Origin: Hypericibacter adhaerens
GTDB taxonomy: Bacteria; Pseudomonadota; Alphaproteobacteria; Dongiales; Dongiaceae
Reading direction: 5' to 3'
NCBI RefSeq assembly: GCF_008728835.1
Contig: NZ_CP042582.1
Location: forward strand, 310,001 to 374,000
Length of the DNA: 64,000 nt
The notes under the pieces are model-generated. The model saw only the letters and a program-made list of their open reading frames with translations, did not search any database and had not been told where the DNA came from. How positions within the stretch are numbered: position 1 is the stretch's first letter; each line of letters opens with the position of its first letter. This document shows, piece by piece, positions 11,374 to 24,409 of the stretch. The position numbers and the translations under genes were made by a program.

Positions 11374-11546
11374 TTCCCGCGGCTCATGCCCCCCAGCCGC
11401 GGGCGGGAGCCGGGTTCATGCAGAGCCCGGCTCCCATCCCCCAACCGGACCCGCTCATGGATACGGCGGGTCGCCTTGAGAGCTCCCGCGGTCATGCCCC
11501 CAGGCCGCGGGCGGGGTGCCGGGCTCACGCAGAGCCCGGCACCATC
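11374..11546 (+). repeat. Array of five hairpins, two ~65-bp direct repeats, loops sharing TCATG/TCACG
   Basis: Two direct copies (11374-11438 and 11483-11546) each fold into two hairpins. The first has arms CCCGCGG/CCGCGGG; the second has arms GAGCCGGG-like and CCCGGCTC-like. A fifth hairpin (GACCCGC at 11448-11454 with GCGGGTC at 11466-11472) lies between them. The second hairpin differs between copies by a compensated pair (AGCCGGG/CCCGGCT against TGCCGGG/CCCGGCA), which suggests the structure is selected. Every loop holds TCATG, or TCACG in one. The array sits between the AraC stop and the terminator at 11551, so it is the AraC 3' UTR, a separate small RNA, or the start of a dodecin leader. 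Confidence 0.65.
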
Positions 11547-11550
11547 ACCA

Positions 11551-11590
11551 GCAGGGCCCGCTTCCGACAGGAGCGGGCCCTGCAGCTTTT
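11551..11590 (+). terminator. Strong intrinsic terminator
   Basis: A perfect 12-bp stem (GCAGGGCCCGCT / AGCGGGCCCTGC) with a 9-base loop is followed by AGCTTTT. It ends the AraC transcript, or the hairpin-array RNA, 80 bp before the dodecin start. The distance also allows a transcription-attenuation role for dodecin. Confidence 0.8.
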
Positions 11591-11670
11591 GGGGCCTGAC
11601 GCCGGTCCCTGGTCGGTCTCCGGTAAGGAGAGTAGGATTTCAGCCCCAACCTCGACTGGGGAGAAACGGC

Positions 11671-11871
11671 ATGTCTGTCGCCCGTGTCACCAAATTGACG
11701 GCCAGCTCGACCAAAGGCTTTCAGGATGCGGTGGAGGTCGCGGTCAAGCGCGCGGCCAAGACCCTGCGCGGCATCACCGGCATCGAGGTGCTGTCGCAGA
11801 AGGCCAAGATCGCCAAGGGCAAGATCGAGGAATACCGCGTCACGCTCGAGGTGACGTTCATCCTGGAGTAG
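11671..11871 (+). CDS. Dodecin-family flavin-binding protein
   Basis: The 66-residue protein is the normal dodecin size, with VTKLTASSTKGFQDAV, the helix RAAKTLRGITGIEVL, and the final strand EEYRVTLEVTFILE. Dodecins form dodecameric shells that store or buffer flavins or other small cofactors. The ATG at 11671 follows GGGGAGAAAC. Gene order (AraC, hairpins, terminator, dodecin) suggests it has its own promoter in 11591-11660. The next gene is convergent and encodes a flavin-dependent monooxygenase, a possible but unproven functional link. Confidence 0.9.
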   Translation: MSVARVTKLTASSTKGFQDAVEVAVKRAAKTLRGITGIEVLSQKAKIAKGKIEEYRVTLEVTFILE

Positions 11872-11934
11872 GGGGCGTCCTCGGCCTCGCACGGGCGCCC
11901 TCGCCGGGGCGGCCCGTTGCTTGGGATGAAGGAA

Positions 11935-11954
11935 GGCGAAGCGGCCGCTTCGCC
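11935..11954. terminator. Palindromic hairpin between convergent genes
   Basis: GGCGAAGCGGCCGCTTCGCC is a perfect 20-bp palindrome between dodecin and the convergent monooxygenase gene, with further GGAAG/CTTCC pairing outside it. It is a probable bidirectional terminator-like element, although there is no T-tract. Confidence 0.5.
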
Positions 11955-11970
11955 GACGCTTCCGTCTGCC

Positions 11971-13314
11971 TCAAGGGAAGAACCGATTGGCGGGCCGCGG
12001 CAGGCCCAGATTCTCGCGCAAGGTGCGGCCTTCATAGGCGCGCCGGAACAGGCCGCGGCGCTGCAGCTCGGGCACGACGCGATCGACGAAGGCGTCGAGC
12101 CCTTCCGGCAGATAGGGGAACATCACGTTGAAGCCGTCGCAGCCCTCGGTGACGAGCCATTCCTCCATCTGGTCGGCGATCGAGGCCGGCGTGCCGATCA
12201 TCTCCAGCGTGCCGTAGCTGCCGCCCACATACTGAGCAAGCTGCCGCACGGTCAGGTTCTCCCGCTTCGCCTTGTCGATCAGCTTCTGACGCGCGCTCTT
12301 GCTGGCATTGCTTTCGGGGATCTCCGGCAGGGGCCCGTCGAGATCGAAAGCTGAGGCGTCGGTGCCCAGCTGGACCGAGAGCGAGGCGATGCCGCTGTCC
12401 GGATGCACCAGCGCGTCGAGCCGGGCCTTGCGTTCCTGCGCCTCCGCCAGGCTGTCGCCGACCACGACGAAGCAGCCGGGCATGATCTTCAGGTGATCGC
12501 GCGGCCGCCCGAGCGCCTCCATGCGCCCCTTCACATCGGCATAGAAGCGCCGGCCGTCGGCCAGGTTGTTCTGGCCGGTGAAGACGACCTCGGCCGTCTC
12601 GGCCGCGATCTGCCGACCGGCGTCCGACGAGCCGGCCTGGACGATCACCGGCCAGCCCTGGATCGGCCGCGCGACGTTCAGGGGCCCGCGCACCGAGAGA
12701 AACGGTCCCTTGTGGTTCAGGATATGGAGCTTGTCGGGATCGAAATAGACGCCGGATTCCTGGTCGCGGATGAAGGCGTCGTCGGCCCAGCTGTCCCAGA
12801 GGCCGGTGACGACATCGAAGAATTCGCGGGCGCGGCGGTAGCGAACCGCATGGTCGAGATGCTCCTCGAGCCCGAAATTCTTGGCCTCGAGCGGGTTGGC
12901 GGAGGTGACGAGATTCCAGCCGGCGCGCCCGCCGCTCAGATGGTCGAGCGAGGCGAACTTGCGCGCGACGTGATAGGGCTCGTTATAGGTGGTGGAGGCG
13001 GTGGCGATGAGCCCGAGCCGTTCCGTCACCACGGCCAGCGCCGGCAGCAGCGTCAGGGGATCGAAGGAGGTCACGGTCGCGCTGCGCTTCAGCGCCTGCA
13101 TCGGCATGTTGAGCAGCGCCAGATGGTCCGCCATGAAGAAGGCGTCGAAGAGCCCGCGCTCGAGCGTCTGGGCGAAGCGCTTCAGATGCGCGAAGCTGAA
13201 GTTGGCGTCCGGAAAGGCGCCGGGATAGCGCCAGGCGGCGGTGTGGATGCTGACGGGGCGCATGAAGGCGCCGAGCCGCAGCTGTTTCGGGGCTTTCGAT
13301 GACGGGTGGGCCAA
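11971..13314 (-). CDS. FMN-dependent LLM-class monooxygenase (NtaA/SnaA/DszA family)
   Basis: The 447-residue two-component flavin monooxygenase would use FMNH2 supplied by a separate reductase. Family marks are RLGAFMRPVSIHTAAWRYPG at the N-terminus, FDAFFMADHLAL, the TERLGLIATASTTYNEPYHV strand, HLSGGRAGWNLVTS (~residue 125), the VIVQAGSSDAGR loop and the C-terminal SYGTLEMIGTPASIAD. Length and motifs match DszA/NtaA/EmoA enzymes, which oxygenate organosulfur compounds or aminopolycarboxylates. No reductase or sulfur-transport gene is adjacent, so the substrate is open. It is convergent with dodecin and divergent from the hypothetical operon at 13920. Confidence 0.9.
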   Translation of the reverse strand: MAHPSSKAPKQLRLGAFMRPVSIHTAAWRYPGAFPDANFSFAHLKRFAQTLERGLFDAFFMADHLALLNMPMQALKRSATVTSFDPLTLLPALAVVTERLGLIATASTTYNEPYHVARKFASLDHLSGGRAGWNLVTSANPLEAKNFGLEEHLDHAVRYRRAREFFDVVTGLWDSWADDAFIRDQESGVYFDPDKLHILNHKGPFLSVRGPLNVARPIQGWPVIVQAGSSDAGRQIAAETAEVVFTGQNNLADGRRFYADVKGRMEALGRPRDHLKIMPGCFVVVGDSLAEAQERKARLDALVHPDSGIASLSVQLGTDASAFDLDGPLPEIPESNASKSARQKLIDKAKRENLTVRQLAQYVGGSYGTLEMIGTPASIADQMEEWLVTEGCDGFNVMFPYLPEGLDAFVDRVVPELQRRGLFRRAYEGRTLRENLGLPRPANRFFP

Positions 13315-13919: not shown

Positions 13920-14870
13920 ATGAACCGGGAGGCACGCTCGGCGCGAGGGAATCTGCACTGGCAGCCGCCAGCGGACGCCCGCGAGCGCGTGGATGCGCTC
14001 ATGCCGGTCTATCGCCGCTTCGTCACCGCCACGCTCGAGCCGATCGTCAAGGCGCATTACCCGGCCTTGCTCGAGAATGCCTCCAACGAATACCGGAAGA
14101 TGGTCGAGCTCAGCACCAAGATGATGCTGGTCGGCCATGCCTGCACCGAGCTCGACGATTATCCCTATGACGAGCGCCGGCAGCGCATCGCCTGCCTCTT
14201 CGGCTGTTGCTGCTTCCTGGCCGACAGCTTCATCGACGATTTCGGCGACGAGGCGACGAAGGCTTATCTGGCGCGCCTGGAGCAGCTCTTCGCGACCGGC
14301 TGGTTCGAGCTGCGCAACGAGCGCGAGCGGCTGTTCTATGTCGTGGTCTCCAGGCTCTTCGCCGAACGCGACATCCTGGAGCCGACCCTGCGCCAGGCCA
14401 TCCTGCGCCTCTTCGAGGCGCAGCGGCGCGACGTCGACATGCGCTTCCTCGAGACCCGGGTGAAGGAATTGCCGCGCCCGCAGCGGCTGGCGCTGCTCAA
14501 GCGCTGCGCCCGCGACCGCAGCGGCCATGCGATCATCCTGCTGGCGGCCTTCCTGCTGCCGCATCTGTCGCTCGACTACATGCGGCTGATCTTCGTCGCC
14601 GGCGCGCTCATCATGTTCATCGACGATCACGGCGACTGCTATGCCGACCGCGCGGATCGCCGCGTCACCTACATGAACGCGCTGGAGCGGCCCGAGCCGG
14701 CGCTGAAGCGCATCTTCTTCTCCCATATCCAGAAGCTGGCGCAGGGCTTCCGGCCCGCCGCCGGCCGCGACCTGCTGATCGCCTTCCTCACCCGCTACTA
14801 CGTGACCCGCCTGCAGAAGCATCGGGAGCAGCGCCGCCTGCGCGGGCCGGCCTGGGCCGTCTATGAGTAG
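13920..14870 (+). CDS. Class I isoprenoid-synthase-like protein, first gene of hypothetical operon
   Basis: The 316-residue protein is predicted all-helical. Two aspartate clusters stand where class I terpene and prenyl synthases carry their Mg-diphosphate motifs: DSFIDDFGD at residues 102-110 and FIDDHGDCYAD at 233-243, about 130 residues apart. The helix around motif one is Cys-rich (GCCCF). I infer a diphosphate-dependent isoprenoid enzyme (cyclase, synthase or prenyltransferase), but overall similarity to any named family is not visible. No signal peptide is seen, though a helix near 222-234 is hydrophobic. The stop overlaps the next start by 8 bp. A reductase of the geranylgeranyl-reductase family later in the operon supports isoprenoid chemistry. 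Confidence 0.7.
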   Translation: MNREARSARGNLHWQPPADARERVDALMPVYRRFVTATLEPIVKAHYPALLENASNEYRKMVELSTKMMLVGHACTELDDYPYDERRQRIACLFGCCCFLADSFIDDFGDEATKAYLARLEQLFATGWFELRNERERLFYVVVSRLFAERDILEPTLRQAILRLFEAQRRDVDMRFLETRVKELPRPQRLALLKRCARDRSGHAIILLAAFLLPHLSLDYMRLIFVAGALIMFIDDHGDCYADRADRRVTYMNALERPEPALKRIFFSHIQKLAQGFRPAAGRDLLIAFLTRYYVTRLQKHREQRRLRGPAWAVYE

Positions 14871-15591
14871 CGAGCATCAGGGGAAGGCCGAAGGCCCGGG
14901 AGCGGGCGGCTCGATCGGCGACTATGTCGCGATCAAGATCCAGGAGCTCTACCGGGAGAGCAAGATCGACGCGCGCGAGGCGTTGCTCAAGATCGACAAT
15001 CGCGAGGAAGCGGCCCAGGCGCCCTTCCAGTTCGACCCCGCGGCCGGGCTGCTGCATCGGCGCGACTGCAAGGCGATCCCCGACAGCGCCCGCAGCGCGC
15101 TCTACGGCGTCTGGCGGGTTTCCGCGGTCGAGGCGAAGTTCGCCTGCCCGCGTTGCCGGCCGGCGGGTGCGGCGGAAAGGCCCGAGCCGGAGAGGAAGGC
15201 CGCCGGCCCGGAATCGGCCCAGGCCGGCGCATCGGCGCAGGCCGATCCCCGCAAAGACAGCAAGCCGCCGCAGGGCGATGTCGCGGATCTCCTCTATGGC
15301 GTGCTCTCGATCGTGAACCAGTTCGGCAGCGTGCTGCGCGAGCGCGGGCGCGAGTTCCGCAAGGGCGGCGAGGGCGGGCGCATCAAGACCGAGCTCGAAG
15401 GGCTCTATGCGAAGCTCGGCGAGCGCGAGAAGGGGCTGGTGCTGATGACGATGCTGTCGCTCGACCAGATGACGCGCAAGATCCGCGACCTCGAGCAGGA
15501 CCTGAACGGCGCCGGGAAGCCGGCCAACAAGACCGCGAACGGCCATGACAACGGGCATCCGGCCGCCGACGGCAAGGGGGAGAGCGCATGA
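14863..15591 (+). CDS. Hypothetical protein with Cys pairs and shared GVxxVNQxGS motif
   Basis: I do not recognise this 242-residue protein. Residues 17-50 are a charged helix (IGDYVAIKIQELYRESKID). The middle has three spaced Cys sites (RRDCKAIP, then ACPRC), which could bind a metal or form disulfides. A Pro/Ala/Lys-rich linker follows, then a predicted amphipathic helix LLYGVLSIVNQFGSVLRER (nucleotides ~15292-15345). A charged helical segment precedes a polar Asn/Gly/His tail. The GV-x-x-VN-x-x-GS element recurs in the proteins at 17985 and 21515. The start overlaps the end of the isoprenoid-synthase-like gene by 8 bp, which indicates translational coupling. Confidence 0.75.
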   Translation: MSSEHQGKAEGPGAGGSIGDYVAIKIQELYRESKIDAREALLKIDNREEAAQAPFQFDPAAGLLHRRDCKAIPDSARSALYGVWRVSAVEAKFACPRCRPAGAAERPEPERKAAGPESAQAGASAQADPRKDSKPPQGDVADLLYGVLSIVNQFGSVLRERGREFRKGGEGGRIKTELEGLYAKLGEREKGLVLMTMLSLDQMTRKIRDLEQDLNGAGKPANKTANGHDNGHPAADGKGESA

Positions 15592-15619
15592 CGCGTTGCG
15601 GATCCGAGGCGAGGCGCTG

Positions 15620-15829
15620 ATGGCCAACATCACCCTGTCGATCCGGCTGGGCCCGCTGGTGCATTTCGAGATCGTGGGCGAGTCCTGCGAGGAGATCAGC
15701 CGCGCGCTCGAGGGCTTCGAGCGTCTGAACCAGACGGTCGGCACCATGTTCGGCGACCTGGCGGAGCGGGTCTATCCCGACCTCGAGAAGGCCGCGGAGA
15801 CGGGCAAGCCGCGGGAGAGCGCGTCATGA
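15620..15829 (+). CDS. Small hypothetical protein (69 aa)
   Basis: This short acidic protein begins MANITLSIRLGPLVHFEIVG, two probable beta strands, and continues with helices containing one Cys (ESCEEISRALEGFERLNQTV). No family is recognised. The ATG at 15620 follows GAGGCGAGG at a suitable distance. The stop overlaps the next ATG by 4 bp (ATGA). Its place inside an unbroken operon and good coding pattern support it as real. It could be a small adaptor or assembly subunit, but that is only a guess from size. Confidence 0.7.
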   Translation: MANITLSIRLGPLVHFEIVGESCEEISRALEGFERLNQTVGTMFGDLAERVYPDLEKAAETGKPRESAS

Positions 15830-16242
15830 CGCTCAAGTCCAAGATCGAGCTCCATGGCCATCCGGACCTCAAGGTCCGCGCCCGGACCGACCCGATCGAG
15901 CTCGACCTGCGCTGCGAGGGCGCCTTCAAGCTCTCGACCGGTCCCATCCGCGCGCGCATCGAGAAGATCCCCGTCACGGTGCGCATCCCCTTCCTCGCCC
16001 GCGCCCATGGCAATGTCCAGGCGATGACGGTGGGGCCCTTCGACGTGCAGATCGATCCCTTCGACGCCAAGCTCAAGCTCATCGAATGCTGGGCCCGCGC
16101 CAAGATCGGCAAGGATGCGTTGCAGGTCGACCTCAACGGGCTCGGCAACTGCAAGTTCGATGTCGAGCTGACGGCCGAGCTGCCGAAGAAGGCCATCGGC
16201 GCCGCGCTCAAGAGCGCGCTCGAAAGCGACGGGGAGGATTAG
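15826..16242 (+). CDS. Hypothetical beta-rich protein (138 aa)
   Basis: The sequence alternates short beta-like segments (SKIELHGHPDLKVRART, ELDLRCEGAFKLSTGP, IPVTVRIPFLA, QAMTVGPFDVQIDPFDAKLK) and ends with a basic helix (LPKKAIGAALKSALES). It has three Cys. The pattern resembles an all-beta scaffold or a lipid-binding/OB-like barrel, but I cannot assign a family. There is no signal peptide. It is coupled to the previous gene by a 4-bp ATGA overlap, and the next gene starts 5 bp after its stop. Confidence 0.72.
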   Translation: MTLKSKIELHGHPDLKVRARTDPIELDLRCEGAFKLSTGPIRARIEKIPVTVRIPFLARAHGNVQAMTVGPFDVQIDPFDAKLKLIECWARAKIGKDALQVDLNGLGNCKFDVELTAELPKKAIGAALKSALESDGED

Positions 16243-16247
16243 AGGTC

Positions 16248-16961
16248 ATGCGCCCTTATCTGCCCGGGCCGCTCCATCGCCATCCGCCGCCGGCGCAGAC
16301 CGTCGTCACGCATCATGTGACGGCGCGCCACCAGATCGAGATCGAGATCTCGCCGCCGCGCATCGAGCTTTCCTTCCGCGACGAGCGCTTCGTCAACCTG
16401 ATCAACACGCAATACCGCTTCGAGGCGAAGCTCTACAACTCGCGCCTCGGCGTGAGCTGGCAGGTACTGGCCCCCTCGGGCGGGCCCGGTGCCGGCACGA
16501 TCGACGCGCAAGGCCTCTACCAGGCGCCCAACAAAGGTGCGCTGGCGAGCCCGCATACCGATCTCGTGGTCGCGACCTCGGTCGAGGACCCGCTGCGCAA
16601 GGCCTTCGCCTGGGTGACGGTGCTGGGGATCGGGCCGGAGCCGGCCCCGGCGCCGGTGATCGAGATCTGGCCCAAGCGCGCGACGCTCTATTACGTCCAG
16701 GGCGACCACAACGCCTATATCGACGATTCCAACAAGATGCAGCTGTTCGAGGCGCGCCTCAGCCACACCGCCGGCACCGCGGTCGAGTGGCTGGTCGATG
16801 GCGCGCTGCAGGCGGGCACCGCGCCGACCTTCCTCTACAAGCTGCCCAATCTGGGCGGCACGCATCTCGCCACGGTGCGCGCCCGCGTCCAGGCGCAGCC
16901 GGGCGTGTTCGACGACGCGAAGGTGCTGCAGCTCAACTATGTCTGGCCCGGCCTGCTCTGA
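16248..16961 (+). CDS. Hypothetical protein with bacterial Ig-like (Big-type) module
   Basis: The protein is 237 residues. A His/Pro-rich start is followed by ARHQIEIEISPPRIELSFR and then a stretch ending GAGTIDAQGLYQAPNKG (residues ~80-97). The G-TIDA-GLY-AP pattern is characteristic of bacterial Ig-like repeats found in surface and adhesive proteins. A second beta module follows (IEIWPKRATLYYVQGDHNAYIDD... to the C-terminus). No Sec signal is visible, which is odd for an Ig-like surface protein. A non-classical location or an intracellular assembly is possible. GAGGTC lies just before the ATG at 16248. Confidence 0.72.
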   Translation: MRPYLPGPLHRHPPPAQTVVTHHVTARHQIEIEISPPRIELSFRDERFVNLINTQYRFEAKLYNSRLGVSWQVLAPSGGPGAGTIDAQGLYQAPNKGALASPHTDLVVATSVEDPLRKAFAWVTVLGIGPEPAPAPVIEIWPKRATLYYVQGDHNAYIDDSNKMQLFEARLSHTAGTAVEWLVDGALQAGTAPTFLYKLPNLGGTHLATVRARVQAQPGVFDDAKVLQLNYVWPGLL

Positions 16962-16983
16962 CGGGCGCCGTTAGGAGAAACCC

Positions 16984-17718
16984 ATGGTCGATGTCGACGT
17001 CAACAAGGTCAAAAACATAGACCCGGTCCGGATTGCCGAGGTCCGCAACATCGATCCGCTGACGATCGCGAAGATCCAGAAGATCGCGCCCGCGGCGGTC
17101 CATATCAAGGAGCTCAACAATATCGATCCGCTCTCGATCGAATCGGTGCGGATCGACCGGGTGCATAATCTGGACCCGCTCCATGTCGAGCGGCTCGACG
17201 TCACCTCCATCCCGACCGTCAATCTGTCGCTGAGCCGGTTGCCCTCGGTGGCGCTCGAGGTCAAGCGCGTGCCGCCGGTGGCGATCACGCTGCAGCAGAA
17301 CCTGGAGCTCAGCTCGAGCTACACCGTGCATACCCGCTTCTTCGGATTCGAGGTGCTGCGGATGCAGCTCCATGGCTGCACCAAGGTGGTCCCGATGGAC
17401 AAGCACCGGCGCGAGCAGTCGAAGAGCGACGACCGCAGCTATACCGAGGTGGCGGCCGCCGGCAATCCCGGCATCCCGGTCAAGCTCTCGGAAAGCTGCA
17501 GCGTGACGCAGGTGGCGGCACCCCGGCCGCCGGTCCCGCATCGCGACCAGGCGCGCCGCGCCGAGCGCGGGCCGCCGCGGCATCTGGCGGCGGCGCCGCG
17601 AGGACCTGCATCCATGATGCATGCGGGTGCGCCGCGCTTCCAGTTCTCAGCATCGGGCGCAGCGCCTTCCGCTCCCGTCGATCCCTTCGACGGCGGCACC
17701 GTCAACTCGGGAGGCTAG
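16984..17718 (+). CDS. Hypothetical protein with N-terminal NIDPL repeats
   Basis: The protein is 244 residues. Residues ~8-75 are built of a degenerate repeat centred on (N)IDP(L/V)xI: KNIDPVRIAEV, RNIDPLTIAKI, NNIDPLSIESV, HNLDPLHVERL, with alternate hydrophobic residues as in a solenoid or beta-helix. A beta-rich region follows (VAITLQQNLELSSSYTVHTR) with Cys in HGCTKV and SESCSV, then a long Pro/Ala/Arg-rich tail that looks disordered. No known family is recognised. A good ribosome-binding site (TAGGAGAAAC) precedes the ATG. The repeat suggests a structural or scaffold role. Confidence 0.75.
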   Translation: MVDVDVNKVKNIDPVRIAEVRNIDPLTIAKIQKIAPAAVHIKELNNIDPLSIESVRIDRVHNLDPLHVERLDVTSIPTVNLSLSRLPSVALEVKRVPPVAITLQQNLELSSSYTVHTRFFGFEVLRMQLHGCTKVVPMDKHRREQSKSDDRSYTEVAAAGNPGIPVKLSESCSVTQVAAPRPPVPHRDQARRAERGPPRHLAAAPRGPASMMHAGAPRFQFSASGAAPSAPVDPFDGGTVNSGG

Positions 17719-17721
17719 GCC

Positions 17722-17961
17722 ATGACGACGAGTCCCTGCGACTGTCCGCAATGCCGCGCCACGCGGCTCCGCGAGAACGCGATGGCGCTGCCGGTGGCCG
17801 CTTTCTACACCGGGGCCGCGAATGTCGCGGCCATCCGTCACCTGATCCACCGCATCATCTGGGACCGACCCTGGCCGCCGGCGCCGCCGCAGAGCGGCCC
17901 GGTCGTCCATCGCTACCGCTATAGCTGCATCCCGCCCTTGCCGGGCGGCGATCCCTGCTGA
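17722..17961 (+). CDS. Small Cys-containing hypothetical protein (79 aa)
   Basis: The start MTTSPCDCPQCRATRLREN holds a CxCxxC cluster able to bind a metal. A hydrophobic helix (MALPVAAFYTGAANVAAIRH) follows, and the chain ends in a Pro/Trp/Tyr-rich tail with two more Cys. The family is unknown. It begins only 3 bp after the upstream stop, and the downstream gene is 23 bp away, which supports membership of the same operon. Confidence 0.7.
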   Translation: MTTSPCDCPQCRATRLRENAMALPVAAFYTGAANVAAIRHLIHRIIWDRPWPPAPPQSGPVVHRYRYSCIPPLPGGDPC

Positions 17962-17984
17962 AGCCAAGAGAGAGGCGCTGAGCC

Positions 17985-18647
17985 ATGCCTGCCACGAACG
18001 AGCCGGACGGAAACGGTCCGCGGACCGCGGAGAAGCCGCCGCCGGGTGCCCGCGCTTCCGCGAACGAAGGCGGGCTCGATCTGCGCGAGAAGGTCGACCA
18101 GATGGGCGCCATCCTGGCCAAGGGGCTCGATCTCGCCGAGGCCGGCGTCAGTCTCGGCGTCACCATCGTGAACCGGATCGGCAGCGTCGCGCAGCAGCAA
18201 GTGCTGGAGCGCATGGCCGCCGCCATGCAGCCGCAAGCAGAAACGCCAACGGGACCGCCGCAGCCCATGCCGGACGCGGCGATGGGCGAGGCCGCCGGCG
18301 GTCCGCCGCCCGAGACCGCTTCCTTCTACATCACCAACCGGCTGCCGCTGGCGCCGGGCGGGACGCTCCGGGTCTCCTTCTCCATCAACAACGATTCGCT
18401 GGTGACGCCCAAGAAGGTGAAGCTGCGGGTCGAGGGATTCCACGGCGAGACCACGAGCGCCGTTCTGCCGGCCGAGACGCTCGCGATCAAGCCCGCCGCC
18501 AGGACGATCGCGCCGGTCGATTTCGAGAAGTTCGTGCTGCAGGGGGCCGTCCCGCCCGAGACGCCGCCGGACGTCTATTTCGGCTGGATCCTGGTTTCCT
18601 CCGAGGAGGAGCTGCGGATTCCGGTCCGGCTCCAGGTCTCGCCGTGA
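17985..18647 (+). CDS. Hypothetical protein with GVTIVNRIGS helix and C-terminal beta domain
   Basis: The protein is 220 residues. The N-terminus is polar and likely disordered. Residues ~30-75 are an amphipathic helix (LDLREKVDQMGAILAKGL, then GVSLGVTIVNRIGSVAQQQ) carrying the same GVxxVN[QR]xGS signature as the proteins at 14863 and 21515. A Pro/Met-rich linker leads to a beta-sandwich-like C-terminal domain (~105-220: SFYITNRLPLAPGGTLRVSF, KKVKLRVEGFHGE, VYFGWILVSS). There is no signal peptide and no Cys. It may be an assembly component whose helix contacts the others through the shared motif. Confidence 0.72.
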   Translation: MPATNEPDGNGPRTAEKPPPGARASANEGGLDLREKVDQMGAILAKGLDLAEAGVSLGVTIVNRIGSVAQQQVLERMAAAMQPQAETPTGPPQPMPDAAMGEAAGGPPPETASFYITNRLPLAPGGTLRVSFSINNDSLVTPKKVKLRVEGFHGETTSAVLPAETLAIKPAARTIAPVDFEKFVLQGAVPPETPPDVYFGWILVSSEEELRIPVRLQVSP

Positions 18648-18678
18648 GGCCAAGTCTTACCATGAGGATGCAGGCCGC

Positions 18679-20181
18679 ATGAGCGCCAACGGCCATATCC
18701 ACGACGTGGTGGTGGTGGGCGCCGGGCCCGGCGGCAGCAGCGCCGCGACCTTCCTCGCGCGCGAAGGGCTCGACGTGCTGGTGCTCGACCGCTCGGAGTT
18801 TCCGCGCGACAAGGTCTGCGGCGACGGGCTGACGCCGCAGGCGATCTATTGGCTGGACCAGCTCGGCTGCGCCGACGCGGTGATGGCGCAGACGCAAGCC
18901 TGCATCCGCGATTGCGACCTCTTCATCAACGGCAAGCATCTCCTGACCGGCGGCTTCCCTGCCGGCACGGCCTATCCCGATTTTGCGATCCTGCTGGACC
19001 GGCGCCGCTTCGACGACACGCTGCTGCGCAACGCCATCGCCCACGGCGCGCGTTTCGAGGGCGGGCGGATCCTGCGCGAGCTCGAGGTCGGGCGCGACGC
19101 GGTCGAGCTCACCTGCCAGACCCGCGATGGTGCCAAGAGCTTCCGGGGCCGCATCGTCATCGGTGCCGACGGCGTCTCCTCGACCGTGTCGCGCGCCATC
19201 GGCAACAAGCTCAAGACCGGCGCCATGGCGCTCTCGTTGCGCGCCTATTACCGCGACGTCGAATGCGAGGGCGCCCAGATCAAGGTCTATTTCGACCGCG
19301 ACTATTTCCCCGGCTATGGCTGGCTCTTCGTCGACGACGACGGCTTCGCCAATGTCGGGCTCGGCTATGCCGTCGACCGCCATTTCGCCATGCCGGGCAA
19401 GCTCGCCGAGGATTTCCAGCGCTTCCTCGAGCGCGAGCTGGGCACGATGCTGAGCCATGCCGTGCCTTGCGGACCGCCCTCGGGCGGCTCGGCCGCCTTC
19501 TTCAAGCCCAACGCCATCCTCGCGGACCGGATCATGCTGGTGGGCGATGCCGCCAACCATGCCGACCCGCTCAATGGCGGCGGCATCCACAAGGCGATGG
19601 AGAGCGCCTATTTCGCGGCCGAGACGGCGGTGGCCGCCCTCGAGGCCGGCGATTGCTCGCGCGCAGCGCTGGGCGCCTATGAGGAGCGCTGGGGCCGGCA
19701 TGTCGGCTTCGACTGGCAGACGGCCGAGCTTTTCCTCTCGATCGCGAAGAACCCCCACTTGCGCGACTTCTGCCTCTTCACCCTGACCCAGATCGGGCGG
19801 CTGACCGATGCCGACCGGCAGTTCCAGGAATTCTGCAGCGGCGTCTTCAGCGGCGCGCTGTCGCAGAGCATCTGCCTCTCGCCGCGGGCGCTCTATCACG
19901 CCTTCCCGAAGGATCCGCGGGTCTGGCGCGCGATGTTCGCGGCCGAAGGCGGCACGGTGCTCGGGCCCTTGCGCGTCGCGCGGGGTGCCGCCCAGAGCCT
20001 GGGCCGCGCCGGCATCGAGATGGCGCGCGATCCGCTGGTCAATCTCGATTGGGGCATCGAGGTCGCGACCAAGGCGGTGCGCCTGGTCGAACGCGGCGTG
20101 GCGGAGACGCCGGGCCTCACGCAGCCGGCCGGCATCCACCCCGCACTTCTGCAGCAGGTCCGGGCTTCGGCCCCGGGCTGA
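18679..20181 (+). CDS. FAD-dependent oxidoreductase, geranylgeranyl reductase family
   Basis: The protein is 500 residues. The N-terminal Rossmann FAD motif is VVVVGAGPGGSSAATFLA (residues 10-27), followed by the family signature FPRDKVCGDGLTPQA (41-55) with Cys47, the strand IVIGADGVSSTVSR, and the second FAD motif IMLVGDAANHADPLNGGG (~285-302). Such enzymes reduce isoprenoid double bonds, for example in archaeal-type lipids, chlorophyll side chains and menaquinone tails; some relatives are halogenases or hydroxylases. The C-terminal ~150 residues are longer than the core family and partly helical. Together with the isoprenoid-synthase-like first gene it suggests synthesis of a reduced isoprenoid. 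It is the most confidently annotated gene of the operon. Confidence 0.88.
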   Translation: MSANGHIHDVVVVGAGPGGSSAATFLAREGLDVLVLDRSEFPRDKVCGDGLTPQAIYWLDQLGCADAVMAQTQACIRDCDLFINGKHLLTGGFPAGTAYPDFAILLDRRRFDDTLLRNAIAHGARFEGGRILRELEVGRDAVELTCQTRDGAKSFRGRIVIGADGVSSTVSRAIGNKLKTGAMALSLRAYYRDVECEGAQIKVYFDRDYFPGYGWLFVDDDGFANVGLGYAVDRHFAMPGKLAEDFQRFLERELGTMLSHAVPCGPPSGGSAAFFKPNAILADRIMLVGDAANHADPLNGGGIHKAMESAYFAAETAVAALEAGDCSRAALGAYEERWGRHVGFDWQTAELFLSIAKNPHLRDFCLFTLTQIGRLTDADRQFQEFCSGVFSGALSQSICLSPRALYHAFPKDPRVWRAMFAAEGGTVLGPLRVARGAAQSLGRAGIEMARDPLVNLDWGIEVATKAVRLVERGVAETPGLTQPAGIHPALLQQVRASAPG

Positions 20182-20197
20182 GAAAGGAACAGGCAGC

Positions 20198-20398
20198 ATG
20201 GCATCGATCTTGGACTCGGTCGGCAAGCTGGTTCACGGGGCGGCGACCTCGCTCATCGACAACCAGGTTCCCGACAAGCTGGCCGATGTGATCGGCACGG
20301 CGGTGAAATCGGGATTCGACGTGATCACCGACAGCCTGAAGGTGATCCAGGACATCACCAAACCGGCGGAGACCCCGCCCAACGGCAACGGCTCCTGA
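20198..20398 (+). CDS. Small hypothetical amphipathic protein (66 aa)
   Basis: The short protein is mainly one or two amphipathic helices: SILDSVGKLVHGAATSLIDN, then DKLADVIGTAVKSGFDVITD, then a Pro/Asn/Gly tail. The pattern of hydrophobic residues every 3-4 positions suits membrane-surface or particle association. No family is recognised. The ATG follows AAAGGAACAGG. It begins 16 bp after the reductase stop and ends 10 bp before the next gene. Confidence 0.68.
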   Translation: MASILDSVGKLVHGAATSLIDNQVPDKLADVIGTAVKSGFDVITDSLKVIQDITKPAETPPNGNGS

Positions 20399-20408
20399 GG
20401 AGGATGCG

Positions 20409-20828
20409 ATGTATCAGTCACCGATCGGATGGCATGCGGGCGGTTGCCAGAATTGGAGCGGTCCCTACTACCTGGCCTTGATCCTGCCGGTGCCCTGCAT
20501 GCCGAGCGACTGCAAACCCTGCAGCGAGCTGGTGGTGCCGCGCGAGATCGAGGTCGATGCGGCGAGCTCGCCGCAGCAGGGCTTCGTCGGCGGGCATGGC
20601 GAGACCCACCTGACGCTCGAATATCTCGTCGATGCGGGCGCCGCGGCGCCGGCGGTCGAGATCAAGCTCGAAACGGGCGGCACGACCCAGACCTGGAGCG
20701 CCACCGACCTGGCCGAGGGCTATCACGTCGAGGACGGGTTCCTCGCCGCCGAGGCCGGCACCAAGGTCTCGATCTCCGTGACCGACGCGCTGGCGCGCCT
20801 GCGCTGGTGCGAACGGATCTGCTGCTGA
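20409..20828 (+). CDS. Hypothetical Cys-rich beta protein, paralogue of the next gene's C-terminal half
   Basis: The protein is 139 residues. Its N-terminal region has Cys at CMPSDCKPC. The rest is beta-rich (ETHLTLEYLVDAG, VEIKLETGGTTQTWSA, GYHVEDGFLAAEAGTKVSIS) and ends ALARLRWCERICC. The HLTLEY strand and the terminal ARLRWCE...C are shared with the protein at 20854, so both carry one homologous beta domain with a conserved Cys-containing C-terminus. A strong GAGGAGG site precedes the ATG. The terminal cysteines could crosslink or coordinate metal. The family is unknown. Confidence 0.75.
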   Translation: MYQSPIGWHAGGCQNWSGPYYLALILPVPCMPSDCKPCSELVVPREIEVDAASSPQQGFVGGHGETHLTLEYLVDAGAAAPAVEIKLETGGTTQTWSATDLAEGYHVEDGFLAAEAGTKVSISVTDALARLRWCERICC

Positions 20829-20853
20829 CGCCATCCGAGAGAAGGAGAGGGGC

Positions 20854-21483
20854 ATGCATCCCGCACATTCGCATTATTCCGGCCAGGGCTTTCCCGGCGG
20901 CCATCACGGGCCGATGATGCCCGGCCTGCCGATCTATCCGGTGCCGATGGGCCATGGTTTCTGTCACGCCTGCGGCCATCCGAAATCGAAATGCGTCTGC
21001 GGCTGCCGCGAATGCCGCAAGGAATCGAAGGAGCTTCTGGTCAAGGCCGATCAGAAGATCGGCGACGTGCGCCAGACGCCGGGCTTCGCCCAGATGATGT
21101 CGGCCCAGGCCCAGGCGCCGATCGTCATGAACCTGCAGACCGCGGGCTTCCAGACCGCCAATGTCGCCGGCCGCGAGACCCTGGCGCTCGATGCGGCCGC
21201 CGCGGCCCTCCAGGCCGGGATCGGCACCGCCTTCATCGGCGGCGGTTGTTGCGTGCATCTCTCGATCGAATACATGCCGACCTCGCCGACCGCGCAATCG
21301 CTGGTCGCGGTGCTGGTGCAGGACAGCGACGGCACGCTGCTCGCCTGGGCCCGGACCGAGAAGGCCGGCATCGGCTACCAGATCAAGGAATGCATTATCA
21401 CGACCAAGCCCGGGGCCACGGTGACGGTCCTGGTCGTCAACATGACGGCGCGCCTGCGCTGGTGCGAAGTCTTCAGCTGCTGA
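20854..21483 (+). CDS. Hypothetical protein: zinc-ribbon-like Cys cluster plus shared beta domain
   Basis: The protein is 209 residues. The start is His/Gly/Pro/Met-rich. At ~38-55 lies a dense Cys cluster FCHACGHPKSKCVCGCRECR, with the spacing of a metal-binding knuckle. Residues ~65-125 are Ala/Gln-rich (QAQAPIVMNLQTAGFQTANV). The C-terminal ~85 residues (CCVHLSIEYMPTSP... to TARLRWCEVFSC) match the protein at 20409 in strand order and in the final ARLRWCE. There is no signal peptide. GAGAAGGAGAGG precedes the ATG. Function is unknown; a metal-stabilised structural subunit is my inference. Confidence 0.75.
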   Translation: MHPAHSHYSGQGFPGGHHGPMMPGLPIYPVPMGHGFCHACGHPKSKCVCGCRECRKESKELLVKADQKIGDVRQTPGFAQMMSAQAQAPIVMNLQTAGFQTANVAGRETLALDAAAAALQAGIGTAFIGGGCCVHLSIEYMPTSPTAQSLVAVLVQDSDGTLLAWARTEKAGIGYQIKECIITTKPGATVTVLVVNMTARLRWCEVFSC

Positions 21484-21514
21484 CAACGGGCATTTGAGCG
21501 AGGGAGACGAGATC

Positions 21515-22102
21515 ATGGCCAAAGGCACGAAACGCAGCGGCAGCAAGCCCGCCGATGCCCCGCGCACCCGGACCAAGGCGCAGGAGGAGCTCGACAAGTT
21601 CCGCGCCCGCTCGGCCGCTTCGTTCGGATCGGGCGCGGGCGGTGCCGCCACGCCCTTCGCGGCGGCGATCCCCTGGCCGGTGCAGGCGGGTCCCGGCGGC
21701 GCACCCGGCTGGGCCTTGCCACCGTCGGTCATGCCCTATCCCGGCATGACGGGAATGCCGGGCATGCCGACGATGCCCAGCATGCCCAACCTGTCGGGGG
21801 CCAGCGCTGGGATCGGCGACCGGGTCGGCTCGACCTTGGGCCTCGGCGTCGATGTGGTGAACCAGTTGCTCGCTGGAAGCCTCCGCCTGCTGCAGGGCCT
21901 CGCCGGCACCGGCTATGGCTATGCGCCGGCCAACTGGGGCGGCGGTCATGGTCATGGCCACGGTTGCGGCTGTGGTTGTGGCGGCGGCTGCGGCTGTGGC
22001 GGGGGTTGCGATCCCTGCCTCTCCGACTGCTGCGGCTATGATTGCTGCGGCGCCATGGGTGCCGGGAGCTGCTGCCGGCCCAGCGTCGGGAATTGCTGCT
22101 GA
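21515..22102 (+). CDS. Hypothetical protein with Met/Pro repeats, GVDVVN helix and Gly-Cys-His-rich tail
   Basis: The protein is 195 residues and ends the operon. Its parts are a basic N-terminus, a GMTGMPGMPTMPSMPN Met/Pro repeat (~75-90), a helix GDRVGSTLGLGVDVVNQLLA with the recurrent GVxxVN signature, and a 55-residue tail of alternating Gly, His and Cys (GHGHGHGCGCGCGGGCGCGG, then DCCGYDCCG and a final NCC). Such tails occur in metal-loading, crosslinked or cell-surface proteins. A TTG 21 bp upstream is possible, but the ATG at 21515 has the better ribosome-binding site (GAGGGAGACG). Confidence 0.75.
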   Translation: MAKGTKRSGSKPADAPRTRTKAQEELDKFRARSAASFGSGAGGAATPFAAAIPWPVQAGPGGAPGWALPPSVMPYPGMTGMPGMPTMPSMPNLSGASAGIGDRVGSTLGLGVDVVNQLLAGSLRLLQGLAGTGYGYAPANWGGGHGHGHGCGCGCGGGCGCGGGCDPCLSDCCGYDCCGAMGAGSCCRPSVGNCC

Positions 22103-22145
22103 GGGAGAGCCGGTGTCCCTGAGACCCGTTCCATTCCTTGTCAGG

Positions 22146-22216
22146 GTCAGGCCCGGACTTGATCCGGGCATCCAGCCTTTGCGGCTCTGGATCGCCGGAT
22201 CAAGTCCGGCGATGAC
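22146..22216. repeat. Extragenic inverted repeat (CCGG-type palindromic element)
   Basis: Two 30-bp arms (22146-22175 and 22187-22216) are near-perfect inverted copies, each itself palindromic around CCGGACTTGATCCGG-like cores, with an 11-base loop. This kind of palindrome is a common intergenic repeat in alphaproteobacterial genomes. Its position between convergent transcription units suggests it also acts as a bidirectional terminator for the 13-gene operon and the hydrolase. Confidence 0.8.
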
Positions 22217-22369
22217 AGGAAAGAGCAAGTTGCCCGCGCCGCAGGGAGGGGGAAGGACGGCGCGGGCATTTGCTCTACCTGAATGAGGGTTTGATGGTTG
22301 GGGGGAACCACACCCTCGAGAATATCAACGCGACACTCGGGGCCCGCGTTCCGAGAAAATTTTTCCGCG

Positions 22370-24409
22370 CTACATCAAGTCCCTGGGGATGCGCTGAGTC
22401 CAGCTCCGCGAGAACACGCGCTGCTCGCCCTCGAAGGCCTGGAGGTCGGCCTCGACGATGAACTCGGCGGCGGTGCAGGCGATGGCGCAATGGCTCTTGA
22501 TGCGCGTCTCCCAGCCCTGGTCGTGGCGGTTGGTGAGATCATGATCGGCCTCGGCATAGGCCGTGGCCGGGTCCGCCGGGTGCATCCGGTAGCGCAGATG
22601 CTTCACCATCTCCGTCGTGACGCCGGTGCCGTTATGGGTCGAGCGTCCGTCGTCGCGCAGCACCTCGATGAATTGCGCGCCGGTCGCGACATCCATCGTC
22701 ACATGGCGATAGACATTGCCCGGCCGCAATGTCGTCCGGTCGCTCTGGGGCAGCGGCTCGGGCGGGCCGAACGTCACCTGCGCGTCGCTCGCCTGCGGCC
22801 GGCGCACCGGTAAGGACAGCGTCGATGAGCCGGCCGCAATCGTGAGGGTCGCCGCTTTCGGCGCCGGCCACAGGATCGGCCAATAGGCGGTCGAGATCGC
22901 GACGCGCACGCGATGGCCGGCGGCGAAACGATGGCCGATATCGTTGAGCGGAATGCGGATCTGGTAGCTCTTGCCCGGCGCGAGCGGGGTGGGCGCGGCA
23001 TGGCTCTCGCGGTGGGTCAGGTTGAGGAGCCCGTAGGTAACACGTGTTACCTGCCCGTCCGGCGCTACGTCGTTGAGCCGCAGCACCGCGGTCGCGACCG
23101 GCTGGTCCGAGGCGAGCGTCAGCGTCACCACCGGCGCCCCCAGGATCTCCAGCGGTGCCGCCAGCGGCTCGCCGTCGAAGACCAGCGAGTTCGCATCGTC
23201 GCCGCGCTGGTCGAGCGGCAGCTCGGGCCCGAGCCCGCCCAGGCCGTAGGGACACCACTCGCCGCCGGCGCTGCCCGTCGTCTGCGGCGAGGCGATGGCG
23301 AGCGGCGCCGGCTTGCCTGCGGCGGCGCCGAGCGTTCCGTTCTGGCGCAGGCCCGCGTCGTTGAGATGCAGGGTCTGCGGCACGATGTTGGCCGAGGGCC
23401 AGGACGGTTCCGAGACCCAGCGGCCCGGCCGCGTCTCATAATGGCTGGCCGGTGCCACCGAATCCTGGACGTACGCGCGCAGCATCGGCTCCTGCATGAT
23501 CCCGGTGTCCTTGCCCTTCAGCCAATGGTCCCACCAGCGCAGCGATTCGGTGAGATAGCCGATGGCGGGACCGGGCACGCCGACATGGCCGTATTTGTGG
23601 CCCCAGGGACCGACGATGCCCTGCGCCGGCACCTTCAGGGTCTTGAGCAGGCGGAAGACGGTGTTGGTATAGCCGTCGGCCCAGCCGCCGACCGCCATCA
23701 CGGGACATTGGATGCGGCCGATATCCTCGCCCACCGAGCCGTGCTTCCAATATTCGTCGCGGCGCTGGTGCGTGAGCCAGGTGCCGAAGACGGGCGTCAT
23801 CGCCTCCAGCCGCTCGAGCCACATCCGGCGCCAGCCTTCGCCCACGATCAGCGGATCGGGCGAGCGGCCCATGATCGAGAAGAAGGTCGAGCCCCATTCC
23901 AGGTTGCCGGTGATATGGGCGCCGCCCATGTAATGCATGTCGTCGGCATAGCGGTCGTCGGTCGAGCAATAGGTGATGATGGCCTTGAGCGCCGGCGGCC
24001 GTCGCGCCGCGACCTGGAGCGAGTTGAAGCCGCCCCACGAGATGCCCATCATCCCGACATTCCCGTTGCACCAGGGCTGCTGGGCGAGCCAGGCGATCGC
24101 GTCCACCGCGTCGTCCTGCTCCTGCTTCAGATACTCGTCGCGGATCACGCCCTCGGAATCGCCGGTGCCGCGGATGTCGAGCCGCACGCAGACATAGCCA
24201 TGGGCCGCGAGGTAGGGATGGGAGAGATCGTCCCAGTCGCGCGTGCCGTCGCGGCGGCGATAGGGGATGTATTCGAGGATGGCCGGCAGCTTCTGGCGTT
24301 CGGCCTCCTCCGGCATCCAGACGCGCGCCGCGAGCCGGGTTCCGTCCGACATCGGAATCCACATCGTCTCGATGTGACGGACCGCGGATCTCGGCGAAGC
24401 GTCGCTCAT
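22370..24409 (-). CDS. CocE/NonD-family hydrolase (copy 1)
   Basis: The 679-residue protein has an X-Pro dipeptidyl-peptidase (S15)-type catalytic domain and a C-terminal jelly-roll. The nucleophile Ser is in MMGISWGGFN (~124), the acid in a DDRYADD/GWADGY segment and the His in GPWGHKYGH. The C-terminal domain has VTLTLASDQPVATAVLRL and typical strands. Members hydrolyse esters or amides, for example cocaine esterase, alpha-amino-acid ester hydrolases and glutaryl acylase. No signal peptide is present. It is closely similar throughout to the protein at 26415-28445, so this is a local paralogue pair flanking an alcohol dehydrogenase and a TetR-type gene. It probably forms an operon with the dehydrogenase (53-bp gap). 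Confidence 0.9.
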   Translation of the reverse strand: MSDASPRSAVRHIETMWIPMSDGTRLAARVWMPEEAERQKLPAILEYIPYRRRDGTRDWDDLSHPYLAAHGYVCVRLDIRGTGDSEGVIRDEYLKQEQDDAVDAIAWLAQQPWCNGNVGMMGISWGGFNSLQVAARRPPALKAIITYCSTDDRYADDMHYMGGAHITGNLEWGSTFFSIMGRSPDPLIVGEGWRRMWLERLEAMTPVFGTWLTHQRRDEYWKHGSVGEDIGRIQCPVMAVGGWADGYTNTVFRLLKTLKVPAQGIVGPWGHKYGHVGVPGPAIGYLTESLRWWDHWLKGKDTGIMQEPMLRAYVQDSVAPASHYETRPGRWVSEPSWPSANIVPQTLHLNDAGLRQNGTLGAAAGKPAPLAIASPQTTGSAGGEWCPYGLGGLGPELPLDQRGDDANSLVFDGEPLAAPLEILGAPVVTLTLASDQPVATAVLRLNDVAPDGQVTRVTYGLLNLTHRESHAAPTPLAPGKSYQIRIPLNDIGHRFAAGHRVRVAISTAYWPILWPAPKAATLTIAAGSSTLSLPVRRPQASDAQVTFGPPEPLPQSDRTTLRPGNVYRHVTMDVATGAQFIEVLRDDGRSTHNGTGVTTEMVKHLRYRMHPADPATAYAEADHDLTNRHDQGWETRIKSHCAIACTAAEFIVEADLQAFEGEQRVFSRSWTQRIPRDLM

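Follow-up and report, generated by a model that had tools for sequence, protein, structure and literature searches.

A 64,000-nucleotide window of the Hypericibacter adhaerens contig NZ_CP042582.1, in whose positions all cassette coordinates are given here, carries thirteen consecutive plus-strand genes (13920-22102) that very probably make up one undescribed cellular system. An earlier note on this DNA, made from the letters alone, had described such a row of genes, and the listing of open reading frames (ORFs), the sequence and the translations bear it out. Start codons were fixed from the sequence at 15620 for gene 3, 16248 for gene 5, 20198 for gene 10 and 21515 for gene 13, where a TTG at 21494 is also possible. 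Ten of the twelve junctions are gaps of 3-31 bp and so the small gaps claimed earlier stand, whereas the 'several' overlaps shrink to two, of genes 1 and 2 by 8 bp and of genes 3 and 4 by 4 bp. Against the same-genus genome G001 the ratio of nonsynonymous to synonymous substitution (dN/dS) is 0.157-0.385 for every gene, and so these are selected protein-coding genes and not chance ORFs; all thirteen are under purifying selection as proteins.

When all thirteen proteins are scanned against Pfam and NCBIfam, gene 9 alone scores above a curated cut-off, and no family does so for genes 1-8 and 10-13. The two enzymes that the earlier note had recognised both hold, gene 1 (13920-14870) by fold match and gene 9 (18679-20181) by family cut-off and motifs, and the remaining eleven, which it could place in no family it knew, indeed pass no cut-off. 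Its Cys- and His-rich proteins with common motifs are also met again, genes 11 and 12 having a domain in common and genes 8 and 13 probably a helix. No transporter, regulator or recombinase was recognised within the cassette, and a mean hydrophobicity of 2.2 over 19 residues (a threshold of our own choice) is reached by no member of any of the thirteen families, the highest value being 2.18 in gene 1. The claim that transporters, regulators and signal-peptide proteins are absent is thus compatible with the family scans and the hydrophobicity screen, no dedicated signal-peptide predictor having been run.

Conservation and limits of the cassette

When GTDB species genomes were scanned with gene 9, 16 loci came up, around each of which tblastn searches with the thirteen window proteins were carried out, and the gene order is the same in every one of these stretches as far as the contigs reach. 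The cassette is also found in G001, which has the whole operon, and in G600, a genome from the phylum of the locus L009, making 19 genomes with the window included and 18 further ones; such distribution counts are lower bounds, since a limited number of first-look candidates was scored per genome. All thirteen genes lie in one stretch in ten of the nineteen (the window, L038, L008, L011, L012, L014, L016, L017, L019 and L040), and in the other nine the cassette is broken by contig ends, with genes 2-7 not seen in L020. The gene 1 family is held by 14 of 14 genomes tested (G001 and 13 of the 16 gene 9 loci), also where contig ends split the operon, and in the three loci outside that test (L007, L013 and L018) tblastn places gene 1 on the same contig as gene 9.

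The earlier note had proposed one system and had named co-conservation as its check. Enzymes and small proteins do keep company, in the same order, in distant genomes, and one system is supported by that check. Among 385 genomes the gene 12 family was found in the host alone; among 349, the gene 5 family was found in the host, with one further match, weak and partial, in G988. Pairwise identities of eight of the families correlate with r of 0.67-0.95 (28 comparisons), as expected if the block travels together. None of 280 flanking ORFs recurs in more than three other genome groups, these being longest-ORF picks and not verified genes, some of them duplicated, with the flanks of L047, L049, L055 and L057 left out. 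Those that do recur are either common to near relatives or, across groups, generic-looking, and the latter we take to be an ABC-transporter ATPase, an amylase-like and a helicase-loader-like protein. With no widely recurring flanking ORF, the system therefore appears to be the thirteen genes themselves, which would set the limits of the cassette.

The hosts are labelled Acetobacteraceae, Alphaproteobacteria, Proteobacteria, Caulobacter(aceae), Rhodospirillales and Paraburkholderia, the proteobacterial ones falling in Alpha- and Betaproteobacteria, and further Nitrospirales/Nitrospiria, Nitrospinota, Calditrichaeota and Chitinivibrionales; this comes to five phyla if the Chitinivibrionales belong, as we assume, to the Fibrobacterota. 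Named carriers include Caulobacter sp. BK020 and Paraburkholderia panacisoli DCY113. Occurrence is rare and sporadic. Counting the centre genome each time, gene 1 turned up within the host's class in 1 of 385 genomes, within the phylum of L009 in 2 of 245, within the genus of the Paraburkholderia host in 1 of 144 and within the family of L012 in 2 of 75. Among 61 relatives a search for gene 9 at E 1e-40 gave the host, G001 and one 34%-identical protein, and it was found in 0 of the 15 other same-family genomes in that set. Identity of gene 9 is 58% to Nitrospirota and 56-67% to other proteobacteria, and sporadic presence together with similar identity across groups suggests transfer, so that the cassette has probably been passed horizontally. 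A mobile origin of the cassette was considered and set aside: no relatives were found of genes 1 or 12 in viral contigs, of genes 1, 9 (at E 1e-30) or 12 in plasmids, or of gene 1 in phage records, and the GC content of the cassette is that of its surroundings.

Genes 1 and 9 and their probable isoprenoid chemistry

The AlphaFold model of the 316-residue gene 1 protein, built on an 11-sequence alignment, is all-helical, with a mean predicted local distance difference test score (pLDDT) of 87.5 and a predicted template modelling score (pTM) of 0.88. By title the 50 Foldseek matches listed are all isoprenoid enzymes (best E 2.4e-3, probability 0.97-1.00). VIA-align gives Z of about 16-17 (best 17.3) over 235-281 residues at 7-15% identity for the 50 best matches listed, which is above the Z of 13 that marks a level possibly empty for helical folds, and the matches include geranyl diphosphate synthase, epi-isozizaene synthase, MoeN5 and other prenyl diphosphate and terpene synthases. 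The first Asp motif (D102-x3-D106-D107) has D102 and D106 in 18 of 18 aligned rows and D107 in 17, and the second (D235-D236-x2-D239-x3-D243) has D235, D239 and D243 in 17 of 18, where it reads DDHGDxxxD (DDYGD in L019), the exception being a frameshifted copy in L013. That copy (773-1873), on a metagenome contig, appears as two tblastn pieces in different frames, from a sequencing error or decay.

Because the fold and the Asp motifs come without a Pfam match, and for the window protein without an NCBIfam isoprenoid match, gene 1 is best taken as a divergent member of the class I isoprenoid-synthase superfamily, a putative and probably active enzyme. With the prenyl diphosphate synthases, terpene synthases and MoeN5 it has in common the predicted all-helical fold and the two Asp motifs; unlike them it passes no family cut-off, has low identity to all matches listed, and reads DxxxDD in its first motif and DDHGDxxxD in its second. 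The spacing of the second motif would fit the prenyl-synthase second motif as well as it would the NSE triad of terpene synthases. GKxxRP, the isopentenyl diphosphate-binding motif of chain-elongating synthases, was not seen in the gene 1 alignment.

Gene 9 is a geranylgeranyl reductase (GGR)-family flavoprotein, matching TIGR02032 at E 2e-59 with 201.7 bits against a cut-off of 158.8, and below the cut-offs of the named single-function subfamilies listed (MenJ, QhpG, BchP and others). The motifs of tested GGRs, as defined in the part of PMC6309074 available, are an active-site Cys, YxWxFP..GxG and GGG. Like the archaeal and Streptomyces GGRs, gene 9 has all three, with C47 in KVCGDGL, YGWLFV..GLG and NGGG in the window protein; unlike them it has V for the P of YxWxFP, and no known lipid, chlorophyll or quinone pathway gene was recognised beside it. 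Across the family YxWxF..GxG is kept in 20 of 21 aligned copies, the active-site Cys in 18, and NGGG in 17, the rest being three tandem copies with NRGG and one L019 copy with NGAG. Gene 9 is duplicated in tandem in L011, L012, L014 and L019. The second copies of L011 and L012 (both 11452-12906) and of L014 (11452-12903) are the three that have no active-site Cys and RGG instead of GGG, because of which they are probably not ordinary reductases; they look as if turned into a non-reducing partner.

A plain terpenoid pathway held in a protein scaffold is a rival account, with gene 1 a terpene or prenyl diphosphate synthase, gene 9 saturating its free product and the small proteins serving as a compartment or channel. 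The closest folds to gene 1 are indeed terpene cyclases and prenyl diphosphate synthases, and the D235-x3-D239-x3-D243 spacing is that of the NSE triad. Tested GGRs, according to the available part of PMC6309074, take prenyl alcohols and diphosphates in free form as substrates. Against such a pathway, GKxxRP is missing, the cassette has no recognised transporter or additional tailoring enzyme, and the thirteen proteins match no known shell protein family in Pfam or NCBIfam. Possible as it is, this scaffolded pathway ranks next after the reading preferred here, an intracellular assembly that carries a saturated isoprenoid.

The superfamily fold of gene 1 is also that of the ComQ and PalQ trans-isoprenyl diphosphate synthase (trans-IDS)-like peptide prenyltransferases, and gene 1 similarly has neighbours with a conserved Trp-Cys near the C-terminus. 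In those enzymes the second motif is a pseudo-motif, NDxxx or GDxxx and not DDxxD (per the accessible text of PMC5331326), and a Gln stands just before it (per the accessible text of PMC13290415). In contrast, gene 1 has a full DDxxD there, the upstream Gln is missing (a Q occurs among the three preceding residues in 1 of 18 rows, L019), and its acceptors would be proteins of 139-209 residues where those of ComQ and PalQ are short peptides. Gene 1 thus fails the motif rules published for the known bacterial peptide prenyltransferases. A ComQ-type tryptophan prenylation by gene 1 is accordingly disfavoured, whereas these rules do not bear on cysteine as a target.

The small proteins and their cysteine tails

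Genes 11 (20409-20828) and 12 (20854-21483) share a domain (hhalign probability 99.1, E 5.9e-19), rows with stops or of unusual length having been left out before the profiles were built. They end in RWCExxCC and RWCExFSC respectively, and gene 12 begins with a Cys-rich segment in which CxxC-x6-CxC-x4-C is invariant. Its AlphaFold model (pLDDT 69 overall and about 86 for residues 121-209) contains a jelly-roll-like beta sandwich, and so the common domain of genes 11 and 12 may tentatively be taken for a jelly roll. Compared with predicted viral proteins the model resembles tail-fibre and carbohydrate-binding types among others, which would be likeness of fold only. Gene 13 (21515-22102) has 15 Cys, a Gly/Cys-rich tail that usually ends in -CC, and a stretch of about 40 residues in common with gene 8 (17985-18647; hhalign probability 77.8, E 1.9e-5), which is probably a helix.

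Among complete copies, Cys is the final residue of 15 of 16 for gene 11, 15 of 15 for gene 12 and 13 of 15 for gene 13, in total 43 of 46. The corresponding figures are 4 of 280 for the flanking ORFs and 0 of 154 for members of nine other operon families. Tail forms include -CC, -CGC and -CCR. The exceptions are two gene 13 copies that end in CCR and one gene 11 copy (L020, 2699-3136) that ends in ITY; this copy has no terminal Cys pair, and genes 12 and 13 on the same contig keep theirs. Gene 7 proteins are also Cys-rich near the end, often with a final residue other than Cys.

Such tails beside a prenyl-transferring fold and a GGR raise the question of S-prenylation, whereby gene 1 would prenylate the C-terminal Cys of genes 11, 12 and 13 and gene 9 would saturate the chain, giving structural proteins anchored to a membrane or droplet. 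The excess of terminal Cys over both controls argues for it, as does the likeness of the -CC, -CGC and -CCR ends to the two-cysteine tails of Rab proteins described in the accessible text of PMC13290415. In bacteria ComQ, PalQ and ChrPC, of the same superfamily as gene 1, prenylate peptides (PMC5331326, PMC10853753 and PMC13290415, each in its accessible part). In archaea the saturated isoprenoid lipid archaeol is reported on the Cys of a C-terminal lipobox (accessible text of PMC13290415), which the cassette would resemble in its Cys near the C-terminus and its saturated isoprenoid, and from which it differs in that no archaeal lipid or lipoprotein gene was recognised in it. Against S-prenylation, the characterised ComQ-type enzymes all target tryptophan as far as that text of PMC13290415 goes. 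The available pages of the 2017 review PMC5331326 call a DDxx(D) second motif, which gene 1 has as DDHGD, unsuitable for tryptophan prenylation and give cysteine prenylation as undetected in prokaryotes. The expected upstream Gln is absent, and the endings in ITY and CCR and those of gene 7 also count against it. Metal binding or disulfides would explain the tails of genes 11-13 as well. On balance prenylation of these proteins is unlikely. Its fullest form, in which gene 1 would lipidate self-assembling jelly-roll and Gly/Cys proteins and the GGR would hydrogenate the chain, so that an interphylum thirteen-gene cassette would yield an isoprenoid-anchored intracellular structure by bacterial S-prenylation and chain saturation, is more doubtful again.

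The same cysteines could instead link subunits, in an Ena-like fibre or coat where the jelly-roll proteins 11 and 12 would polymerise via their N- and C-terminal Cys and the isoprenoid enzymes would add a hydrophobic coating. Gene 12 resembles the Ena endospore appendage subunits (PF13157) in its jelly-roll-like domain, its Cys-rich N-terminus and a Cys in the last strand, the Ena2A fibre (9i0y) is among its structure matches (Z 8.6, 104 of 113 residues, rmsd 4.9), and an N-terminal Cys of Ena is joined to a Cys of neighbouring subunits according to the part of PMC8619143 available. The Ena2A match is tied, however, with unrelated beta sandwiches, and genes 11 and 12, unlike Ena subunits, have no family match, sit beside isoprenoid enzymes and occur outside Bacillus. 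A search of the host genome for PF13157 at E 1 came back empty, as it also gave nothing over cut-off in its 14 control genomes, and no match to the family was seen in 13 gene 12 and 14 gene 11 members; neither a secretion signal nor a sporulation context was found. Membership of genes 11 and 12 in the Ena family was therefore rejected on sequence, and a fibre or coat of this kind is quite improbable.

Alternatively the Cys-rich proteins might bind metal in the reducing cytoplasm as a metal or redox store with the isoprenoid part as its membrane tether, for which the invariant CxxC-x6-CxC-x4-C of gene 12, C69, C95 and C98 of gene 2 (14863-15591) and the Gly/Cys tail of gene 13 would speak. A store would leave two conserved isoprenoid enzymes and the Ig-like and repeat proteins without explanation, and no metal transporter or regulator was recognised in the cassette; it is the least probable of the accounts weighed here. 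The three Cys of gene 2 are present in 17 of 17 rows and H65 is invariant in 12, an arrangement that may be zinc-knuckle-like; the C-terminal part is conserved and 5 of 12 members give a sub-threshold match to DUF6233 (best E 7.7e-4).

Gene 5 (16248-16961) may be immunoglobulin (Ig)-like, given that its profile matches Hoc, an outer-capsid protein of phage, at E 1.9e-4 and that one of 13 members matches I-set, at no better than E 0.069. The weak match in G988 (L061, G988:C117:3815-4075) covers positions 45-131 of the gene 5 profile and is part of an open frame of 2345 residues that may encode a large surface protein with Ig repeats. In gene 6 (16984-17718) the second half is conserved and the N-terminal part (16984-17300) holds NIDPLxI-type repeats, with self-identity z over the first 100 residues of 16 members of 9.9 at 5, 8.1 at 10, 6.1 at 11 and 6.0 at 16 residues; such regularity is suggestive of a solenoid. 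Gene 7 (17722-17961) encodes a small, fast-evolving Cys-rich protein that tblastn recovered in few loci. All 13 stretches inspected nevertheless have a Cys-rich ORF between genes 6 and 8, the homologues having been chosen by eye. Gene 8 has a conserved helix-like stretch GLDLAEAGxSLG, a conserved C-terminal part and weak arrestin-type matches only. Genes 3 (15620-15829, 69 residues) and 10 (20198-20398, 66 residues, probably an amphipathic helix) are conserved in position, the former with no Pfam match, as is the case for gene 4 (15826-16242, 138 residues), which also has no sequence relative in the PDB; PDB sequence searches with genes 2, 4, 8, 11 and 12 gave weak matches or none.

The proposed assembly and its setting

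In the reading preferred here, which keeps the earlier note's idea of an isoprenoid-carrying particle or assembly, the thirteen-gene system would build an intracellular protein assembly. Genes 1 and 9 would make a saturated isoprenoid that this assembly holds or by which it is lipidated. The probability of this reading is put at about one half. Gene 1 would ionise a prenyl diphosphate by way of metal ions on its two Asp motifs and then either hand the resulting cation to an acceptor or close it into a ring, and gene 9 would hydrogenate the isoprenoid double bonds. The jelly-roll-like proteins 11 and 12, the Cys/Gly protein 13, the helix proteins 2, 8 and 10, the possibly Ig-like protein 5 and the repeat protein 6 would form a body in which the isoprenoid product is held or stored, or which is anchored by it. 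A jelly-roll-like domain, Cys tails, a shared helix and the absence of any strongly hydrophobic segment are in keeping with an intracellular assembly and are no proof of it; enzyme activity, the assembly and its cytoplasmic site, the identity of the product and its joining to the assembly we infer.

Several points weigh against this reading. A plain terpenoid pathway with scaffold proteins would match most of the data equally well. None of the listed Foldseek matches of gene 1 reaches E <= 0.001, and 0 of 11 gene 1 members match an isoprenoid Pfam family. The VIA matches of gene 12 are middling, with Z of 8-9 tied among phage, TNF/C1q, GOLD, BcsB, capsid and Ena folds. Its Foldseek lists have carbohydrate-binding modules and phage tailspike or tail proteins in high places; because the matches are tied among so many beta-sandwich folds, the fold assignment is tentative and gives no clue to function. 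The named non-proteobacterial loci are all contigs of metagenome bins, of which single ones could be misbinned, the Nitrospirota occurrence being firmer because L009, L010 and G600 also have flanking genes in common. Finally the gene 1 tree has weak inner support and cannot decide between transfer and loss.

Known systems of other kinds were also compared. No HK97-type shell of encapsulins was matched by the thirteen proteins in Pfam or NCBIfam, and none is among the listed structure matches of genes 1 and 12, the two genes that structure models cover, which excludes nothing. Ten of the proteins (all but those of genes 3, 7 and 10) were scanned against PADLOC, with a single weak match, of gene 9 to an FAD domain, and a known defence system was set aside.

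A promoter search gave no sigma-70-like site, and terminator-like sites number 8 against 3.6 expected in shuffles, neither of which is informative. In the 64-kb window there were no matches to RNA families and no tRNAs. Just downstream of the operon lies a strong imperfect palindrome (22140-22222; -47.5 kcal/mol, z -5.75) with 35 matches in the host genome, itself included, and so a dispersed repeat element. The minus-strand neighbours on either side, presumably a luciferase-like monooxygenase (11971-13314) and a CocE/NonD-type hydrolase (22370-24409), are not among the recurring flanking ORFs listed. In three Nitrospirota-type loci the cassette is followed directly by a gene that we take to be alpha-amylase-like, and a relative of this gene precedes the cassette in the Calditrichota genome (L009, L021, L040 and L052), perhaps by chance.

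Full-text literature searches aimed at the system gave no paper that describes it in its title or the opening of its abstract, though an account under other words could be missed. A block of thirteen genes whose order is kept in distant bacteria, and of which eleven families pass no cut-off, points strongly to an undescribed cellular machine, one that ties the making and saturating of isoprenoids to structural-looking proteins, a pairing not found described in the literature searched. If the Cys tails are lipidated this would be bacterial cysteine prenylation by a new type of enzyme, a modification that the accessible part of the 2017 review (PMC5331326) has as undetected in prokaryotes. If they are not, the cassette would still be a tractable new system, self-contained in about 8 kb and present in named strains.

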